Source: Acidobacteriota bacterium (GTDB lineage Bacteria; Acidobacteriota; UBA6911; RPQK01; JAJDTT01). Taken from it: a stretch of DNA of 64,000 nt. The notes beneath the pieces were generated by a model, which saw only the letters and a list, made by a program, of their open reading frames with translations, made no database searches and was not told the origin of the DNA. This document shows positions 58,736-62,470 of the stretch, piece by piece. The position numbers and the translations under genes were made by a program. Numbering within the stretch: position 1 is the stretch's first letter; every line of letters begins with the position of its first letter. The stretch spans positions 1 to 64,000 of the forward strand of contig JAJDTT010000255.1 in NCBI GenBank assembly GCA_022827025.1, given 5' to 3'.

Positions 58736-61700
58736 TCAGAACCTGAACTTCAGAGCAAACTGAATCTGCCGTCCTCGTCCGGCGCTTTGGATTCTTCCCA
58801 CGGTGCCCGACGCCAGATTGCTGACTGGATTGCCGAAATTCGGACGATTCAACAAGTTAAAGAACTCTCCCCGCAACTGCATGCTGCTGGTTTCGGTTAC
58901 AGCAAAGTTTTTCATCAATCCGAAATCAACATTGGCAAATCCGGGACCGACGAGCGTGTTTCGCCCCAAGGTTCCAAACGTCAACACGGGATTGGGTTCG
59001 AACGCGTCCGGGTTGAAATACCTCTGTATGAGTTGCCCCCGGTCGCGCCCGGTATCCAGTTTCGCGTTTCCAAACTGATTGGGCCGGTCCTGGTTGAGCG
59101 CCGTCCTGGAGTTGTCCAAGCCGGTCATCACCGTGAAAGGACTTCCGCTCTGCATACTGACCAGGCCTGTAAACTGCCAGCCGCCCAGCAAATTCCTGAT
59201 GACGACCGAATCATGCTGGGTGAGCCAGCCTGGACTCCAGACCCACGAAGCGGAGAAGATTTGGCGCCGGTCAAACGCCGCCGGTCCCCGGTCCAGACCG
59301 GGGTTGTCCGAATCTTGATGGACGCCACGATTCTGGTAACCCGTACGGGTTGTATCGATCCATTTGCTCCGGGTGTAGTTCACATTGAGCAGGTAGTTAG
59401 CGGTAAACCGTTTGCTCAACACCATCTGCAGCGCGTTGTAATTGGAAGATGCACCATCTTCGAAGCGCCGAATGGTGCTGATGCCGGCCGGGTTGTAACG
59501 GCGGCGCTGCTGGCGATTCCCCAACGTGCAGGCGTCCGGGTTGCGAGATGGACAATCTGCGGGATTCCGTTCGACTGTGTCAGCCAGTTTACGCACCGTA
59601 TTCCCTACAAACGCGACCTCAAGCAGATAATCCTGAGGCAACTGCTGCTGCACGGCGAAACTGTAATGCTGAATGTAAGGGTTTCGGATTTCCGGTTCAA
59701 TCGCCCAAGCTGAGATCGGTTTCGAAAAGATCACGACCCCGGTCTCCGGACAAAATGTCGATATTGTTCCTGGGCACGCACTGGGCAAGGGACTCTCTCG
59801 GAACGGATTGGAAAACTCGCTCAGGAGATCCGATCCCAGCGAGAAGATTGGCAGAAACGGCTGGTTCAGCGCCGAAAACTGGGAGTAGCCATTGGTGCTG
59901 AACTGGTAAAAAACACCCCAGCCGGCACGGACACTGGTCTTTCCAGTTCCAAAAACATCCCAAGCCAAGCCCAGGCGGGGGGCGAAGTTGTTCTTGTCGG
60001 GCATATAGGTCGATCCCGAAATCCCCGGGTCATTTCCATAGGCCATCCCCTCGGGAGCTGTCGGGAAGAGCGTGGACTGGTATCCCGGTATCCAGGTCGC
60101 AATCCTGTCGTCCTGTTCCCGAACGGGATCGTCGTACTGATATCTCAATCCCAGATTGAGAGTAACGTTGTTTGAGACCTGATAGTCGTCCTGAACGAAG
60201 AAGTTCAGGAACCAGGAACGATGATCTTCCCGCTCCAGGAGCAGGAGGAGGTTGCTGACGTGGCCGACCATGAAGTCGCCCAACGTATTGCCGGTGAGCT
60301 CCCCGTTAAAGGTAAACAGTCCCTGGTCGAAATTGGGACGACCCACCATGTGAAGCTTCTCAAAGGAGAACCCGAACCGAACAGTGTGGTCTCCTTCAGT
60401 GACATGGACCGTATCCTGCGCCTGCCACGTGTTGTCGAGTCTCACGTGGTTCCCGAGAAAACTCGAGGAGAGACTGAAACGACCAACGACATTAATGTTG
60501 GGAGGGAACGGAATTTCAGTGTTGACGCCCTGGATTCCGTAGTCAGCCGGTCCCCGCTGATTCGAGTGAAGTTGGGACTCGTCTCGGCGCCCGTATGAAA
60601 TCTGAGCCTCATTGATCACCCGGGGACTGAATGTGTGCGTGTTTTGCAATGTGGCGTTGTGCACGGAATAGGGCGTCGTCTTGGTGGTCCAGGGAATATT
60701 TCCGTCATTTCGGAAGAAGTCCGATTTGTCTCTCCAGAACCGTCCCGTCAGTCGATTGTTCTCGGTGAACTGATGATCCACCCGAATCAGATACTGATCG
60801 CCGTTGGATCCCGCGCTCGTATTCAAAGCGAACCCGCCACCCGGAGCATTGGCATTCGGAAGCTCCGAAATCACGTTCAGTGCGGCCGGGTCCAGCCTGT
60901 TGGATGGAATGATGTCCCCTGGGAAACGTTCTCCCGTCACTGGATCGATGGGAGGATTGGAGGAAGCGGAGAAATTTCCCTGCCGCTCGAGAGCGGAGGG
61001 AGGAATGGCGCCTGACATGACTCTTGACTGCCGGATACGGGTTCCCTGGTAGCCAAAGAAGAAGTGGGTCTTGTCCTTGATCACAGGTCCGCCCACGGTT
61101 CCGCCGAACTGGTTGTACACGAGAAAGGGAGACTCAGGCGCAAAGAAGGAACGGGCGTTCAAGGCGCCGTTGCGGTGGAACTCGAAAGCACTCCCGTGAA
61201 AGCGGTTGGTACCTGACTTGGTAACAACGCTGAAACTGGCCACCGAACCGCGGCCTTTCGAGGCATCGTAACTGTTGGTCTCAGCTCGAAACTCCTTGAC
61301 CATGTCCGGAGGTGGCATGGGAAGGCCACGAGCTCGTTGGACATTGTTGAACTGGGCTCCGTCCAACTGGAAAGAATTCATCTGACCGTTTCCACCGCTG
61401 ATGTTCACGATGATGTCCCGGGTGCCCTGCTCGGGAATCGAAATACGTGCCGCACCCGGAATCAGGGTGATCAGGGCCAAGGGGTCGCGGCCGGCAAGCG
61501 GCAGTTCGTCGACCCTCTTCTCGTCCATGAGGCGACTGATGGACGCGCTTCTCGTCTCCACCTGTATGGCCGTCGAGGCAACGGTGACCTCCTCGGCCAC
61601 CTCCCCGACCCTCAAAACCAGATCGACCCGGGAGTTTTCCTCCACCGTGAGATGAATTCCTCCCATCACCAGTTTCTTGAACCCGGACAATTCCGCCTCC

Positions 61701-61969
61701 ACCCGGTAGTCTCCCAAGGGCAGGAGGGTGATCCTGTAGAGTCCCTAATCGTTGGAAAGGGAGGTCCGTTGGAAGCCCGTTCCTTCGTTGACGGCGACGA
61801 CCTCGACACCGGGAATCACGCCGCCGGTCTCGTCCTGGACTCTGCCCAGAATCGTCGCGGTCTGTTGCGCCTGCACGGATACCGTCGCGACCGCCAGCAA
61901 CAAGAGCCCCAAAACGATCTGAAGGCAGAGCGGGTTTGACCTCGTGGCCCATACAGTTCTACTTGCCAT
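58736..61969 (-). pseudogene. TonB-dependent receptor (Oar-like) interrupted by an amber codon
   Basis: Read as one frame of 1077 codons from ATG 61969 (AAGGAG about 10 bases upstream). Residues 1-35 are a signal peptide (LGLLLLAVATVSVQAQ). The carboxypeptidase-regulatory domain is cut at 61747-61745 by TAG: the frame reads RTSLSND-stop-GLYRITLLPLGDYRVE. The homologous join is normally SND(Q/A/K)GLYR. Everything after it (plug LDGAQFNNVQRARGLPMPP, barrel, terminal LKFRF) is intact with no further stop or shift. Either a recent nonsense mutation, a sequencing error, or amber readthrough. It heads a minus-strand set with the CRTAC1, deacetylase-like, rhaM and isomerase genes. Confidence 0.85.
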
Positions 61970-62169
61970 TGCTAAAAGACTCCTTGGCAGGGGGTGGATC
62001 CTCATGGGCAACCCGCCTCTGATTTCCACCTCGTAGGGGACGCATAGAAAGTTGGAGTTGGTACCCCAAAAGCAAATTAGAGTCAGTATCGACCAGGGAG
62101 ACCGGTCGGGTCAAGGGAAAATCGCGACGAAGCGGTCCCATTCCCGTGCGCCGGCCAAACCGGAATGAA

Positions 62170-62194
62170 CGTAGGGGCACCCTTGCCGTCTTCG
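62170..62194. repeat. Half copy of the palindromic repeat
   Basis: GTAGGGGCACCCTTG without a matching right arm; likely a decayed copy of the GCACCC subfamily. Confidence 0.6.
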
Positions 62195-62213
62195 CTTCAA
62201 GCGGGTTCATGCC

Positions 62214-62307
62214 GCCAGGAAGAGGGCGACCACAAGGGTCGCCCCTACGATACGGACGCGCCAGGAAGAGGACGACCACACACAGAGTCGCCCCTACGAT
62301 ACGGACG
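62214..62307. repeat. Two tandem units, each with a palindromic repeat
   Basis: GCCAGGAAGAG(G/-), GCGACC or ACGACC arm, loop, GTCGCCCCTACGATACGGAC occurs at 62214-62257 and again from 62260, a 46-base period. The second copy has a longer loop (ACACACAGA instead of ACAAG). This suggests duplication of a whole unit, including flanks. Confidence 0.85.
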
Positions 62308-62382
62308 GGAATTGTCCGGAGAATGCGGAATCCTTACAAGGAATGACGACCGACCCCAGCGCCCGCAACCAAATTTGAGACC

Positions 62383-62412
62383 GTAGGGGCACCCCTTGTG
62401 GGTGCCCTCTTT
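62383..62412. repeat. Palindromic repeat, GCACCC subfamily
   Basis: GTAGGGGCACCC, CTTGT, GGGTGCCCTCTT; eight perfect pairs. Confidence 0.85.
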
Positions 62413-62440
62413 CGTCACCGCATCAACTGCCGGCCCGGGG

Positions 62441-62470
62441 AGGGCGACCACACACAAGGGTCGCCCCTGC
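62441..62470. repeat. Palindromic repeat, GCGACC subfamily
   Basis: AGGGCGACC, ACACACAA, GGGTCGCCCCTGC, with an expanded CACACA loop. Confidence 0.85.

Follow-up and report, generated by a model that had tools for sequence, protein, structure and literature searches.

A recent nonsense mutation, most likely a change from GAG to TAG, is in our view the best explanation (with a probability of roughly two in three) for the single in-frame amber codon that interrupts a TonB-dependent/Oar-like receptor gene of an uncultured Acidobacteria-like bacterium, a gene that belongs to a large family of paralogues. The window, by which we mean the whole stretch of DNA that was analysed, comprises positions 1-64,000 of contig JAJDTT010000255.1 (Acidobacteriota bacterium, assembly GCA_022827025.1), and the genome to which it belongs, here labelled G000, is in 318 contigs and was scored as 98.8% complete. 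The receptor gene lies on the minus strand at 58736..61969 and has 1,077 codons and a stop; the amber codon is codon 75 (TAG, 61745..61747, minus strand) and in the assembled sequence stands between the residues SND and GLYR, as the first-pass annotation of this DNA had noticed. The same annotation gave the frame as intact for more than 3 kb on each side, which holds only for the sum of the two sides; taken singly, the open frame extends over ~0.22 kb upstream (74 codons, from ATG 61969) and 3.0 kb downstream (1,002 codons, to the TGA at 58738-58736). Its description of the start, ribosome-binding site and terminal phenylalanine as sound is borne out: AAGGAG (61980..61985, minus strand) precedes ATG 61969 by 10 nt, both elements are conserved in the ortholog from G003, a genome of the same genus, and the receptor ends in KFRF with the TGA immediately after the terminal Phe. 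The longer starts GTG 62029 and ATG 62005 were also considered and rejected; they are out of frame in G003 owing to a 1-nt indel just 5' of the ribosome-binding site.

The domain structure of the protein runs across the stop. The piece before the TAG matches positions 1-35 of the Pfam domain CarboxypepD_reg (PF13620), and the piece after it matches positions 38-81 of the same domain, followed by the OMP_b-brl_4 beta-barrel (PF25183; 58760..61225, minus strand), which lies intact downstream of the stop (positions 1-838 of 838, 716 bits, E 1e-214). Read through the TAG, the split N-terminal domain (61613..61855, minus strand) scores 66.8 bits, above the cut-off. The match is not a chance one, since the sequences on either side of the TAG belong over their whole length to a single family, and apart from the TAG we found neither a second stop nor a frameshift in the gene. 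A sequence search against solved structures gave no match for the receptor. In domain order, length and terminal Phe, the protein is like the Oar-like CarboxypepD_reg/OMP_b-brl_4 receptors that are expanded in Acidobacteriota, from which it differs by the amber codon inside the N-terminal domain. Approximately 40 homologous receptors are present in G000, and an internal stop was found neither in the other barrel-domain matches of this genome (46 matches in all) nor in its other CarboxypepD_reg matches (62 in all). The family is redundant, and therefore the loss of one member would probably be tolerated with ease. Among homologues in other genomes, two (G028:C228 and G022:C208) have apparent stops, but these precede the likely starts and cannot be compared with the present one. 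A further homologous receptor, L140 (G028:C633:667-3975), has a late in-frame TAG 69 codons short of the end (codon 1055 of 1123 as read) and is a candidate for another nonsense allele in the receptor family. At the level of listings, a literature search returned nothing specific on premature stops in CarboxypepD_reg/OMP_b-brl_4 receptors.

Comparison with related genomes, the check that had been proposed for the stop, yielded intact orthologs in which a sense codon occupies the position of the TAG. In a search of 18 genomes of the order, matches were obtained only in G003, in G014, which belongs to another family, and in G015, a relative at 38% identity; a collection of named genomes, from which records near G000 were possibly left out, held only distant relatives at 24-37% identity, and the search found no second genome of the same species. 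The G003 ortholog is intact, of equal length, 94% identical at the protein level and in the same gene order, and the G014 ortholog is 68% identical. The codon at the site of the TAG is GAG (Glu) in G003 and GAC (Asp) in G014, which is as expected if the G000 copy is a young nonsense pseudogene. The first-pass annotation had proposed CAG as the ancestral codon, and this does not agree with the orthologs; among the G000 receptors in which the motif was found, CAG occupies this site in one paralogue (L044). Because G003 has GAG and G014 has GAC, the TAG is likely to have arisen from GAG rather than from CAG, by a G-to-T substitution on the coding strand, which would be the most economical history.

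We used the same orthologs to consider the age of the stop. Over the whole gene, the pairwise comparison of G000 and G003 gave a dS of 0.32 and a dN of 0.030, and the ratio of 0.094 indicates that the two orthologs have evolved under constraint. When G014 served as outgroup, the polarised changes comprised 69 synonymous and 22 nonsynonymous substitutions on the G000 branch and 77 and 26, respectively, on the G003 branch (Fisher p = 1), and thus give no sign of a loss of constraint on the G000 branch. A simple two-rate Poisson likelihood gave 0 as the estimate for the unconstrained share of the G000 branch and 5.9% as its upper 95% limit; this bound uses only sites at which the state in G014 is shared by G000 or G003, and it assumes equal constraint on both branches. 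Because these substitutions accumulated without loss of constraint, the stop would span less than ~6% of the G000 branch. This accords with the original suggestion of a very recent null mutation or an error, since an intact ortholog exists and constraint on the G000 branch is not relaxed. As judged from these substitutions, the TAG would be either very young or an error, and both fit the present constraint data equally.

Upstream of the receptor, the region between it and a GWxTD gene holds ~300 bp of palindromic intergenic repeats (window positions 62164-62466) with the core GTAGGGGCGACCCTTGTGGTCGCCC, and these are absent at the corresponding place in G003. Allowing up to 2 mismatches, the core has 84 forward and 88 reverse matches in G000 and 22 forward and 26 reverse matches in G001; at the same threshold there are 0 matches in G002 and 0 in G003. 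The repeats are a REP-like element with a patchy presence within one genus.

The main rival to a recent mutation is that the TAG is a consensus, base-calling or strain-mixture error, the gene in the organism being uninterrupted and carrying a sense codon here; we regard this as rather unlikely. The assembly is fragmented into its 318 contigs, the lesion is a single isolated substitution in a gene that shows neither another lesion nor any relaxation of constraint, and a G-to-T (C-to-A) change is typical of oxidised-guanine artefacts; on the other hand, consensus substitution errors are rare per gene, and there is no positive sign of an error here, such as further lesions in the receptor gene. 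The lack of further decay, however, fits an error as well as it fits a recent nonsense mutation. That the organism itself carries the TAG is our inference. A reversible on/off switch at the TAG site, which had been raised as phase-type variation, has a probability close to nil: phase variation is common among the outer-membrane receptors of other bacteria, but a single-base substitution is not the usual mechanism of such variation, and the slippage tract or invertible repeat that marks the switch of a phase-variable gene is missing, with no slippage tract or direct repeat flanking the TAG and no inverted repeat spanning it.

Programmed or leaky readthrough of the amber codon, or a suppressor tRNA, could also yield a full-length receptor, and the frame downstream of the TAG is indeed still constrained; we nevertheless judge this to be very unlikely. 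The stop is missing from both orthologs and, as described above, from the other receptors of G000, while in this genome TAG is an ordinary terminator, ending 12 of 28 receptor genes directly after the terminal aromatic residue, and RF1 is present (505 bits, above the cut-off). Nor does a recoding structure stand out near the TAG, around which predicted RNA folding is average (z 0.23 to 0.37). The search for a suppressor tRNA that had been suggested found no CTA anticodon among the 41 tRNAs named by ARAGORN, out of 42 tRNA matches in a set that is incomplete. The 42nd match (G000:C26:7135-7211; L107 201-277) is weak at 37 bits and is not called by ARAGORN; inspected by eye, it has a tRNA fold with an unusual body and the anticodon CAG. 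Despite the completeness score, tRNA-Tyr, Gly(tcc), Thr(tgt) and Thr(ggt) are absent from the assembly, which therefore has gaps there, probably because a tRNA cluster was lost at a contig break. On the decoding side, this incomplete tRNA set counts against a recent inactivating mutation, and a suppressor tRNA in such a gap might allow the TAG to be read through at a useful rate, making the receptor a functional 'pseudo-pseudogene'; we consider this highly improbable.

Under our preferred reading of a recent nonsense mutation, translation from ATG 61969 would halt after 74 residues, and the product, a signal-peptide-like segment with ~35 residues of CarboxypepD_reg, would likely be an exported fragment. 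Since the downstream barrel lacks its own signal sequence, a null allele is to be expected, and for the same reason re-initiation, for example at TTG 61717, would give no outer-membrane protein. Unless it is an assembly error, the TAG thus almost certainly inactivates the receptor, and no functional protein would be made. Single-nonsense bacterial pseudogenes likewise are interrupted by one premature stop, in a gene that is otherwise whole and was recently under constraint and whose ortholog in a congener is intact; the present case does not differ from them, save that the base in G000 is as given by the assembled sequence. We see ordinary gene decay here, and nothing that points to a special mechanism of decoding. 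The annotation of the locus should read probable young pseudogene, or suspect base; it should be neither entered as two genes nor cited as evidence for recoding. Beyond annotation it matters little, being one more small case of turnover within a heavily expanded receptor family.
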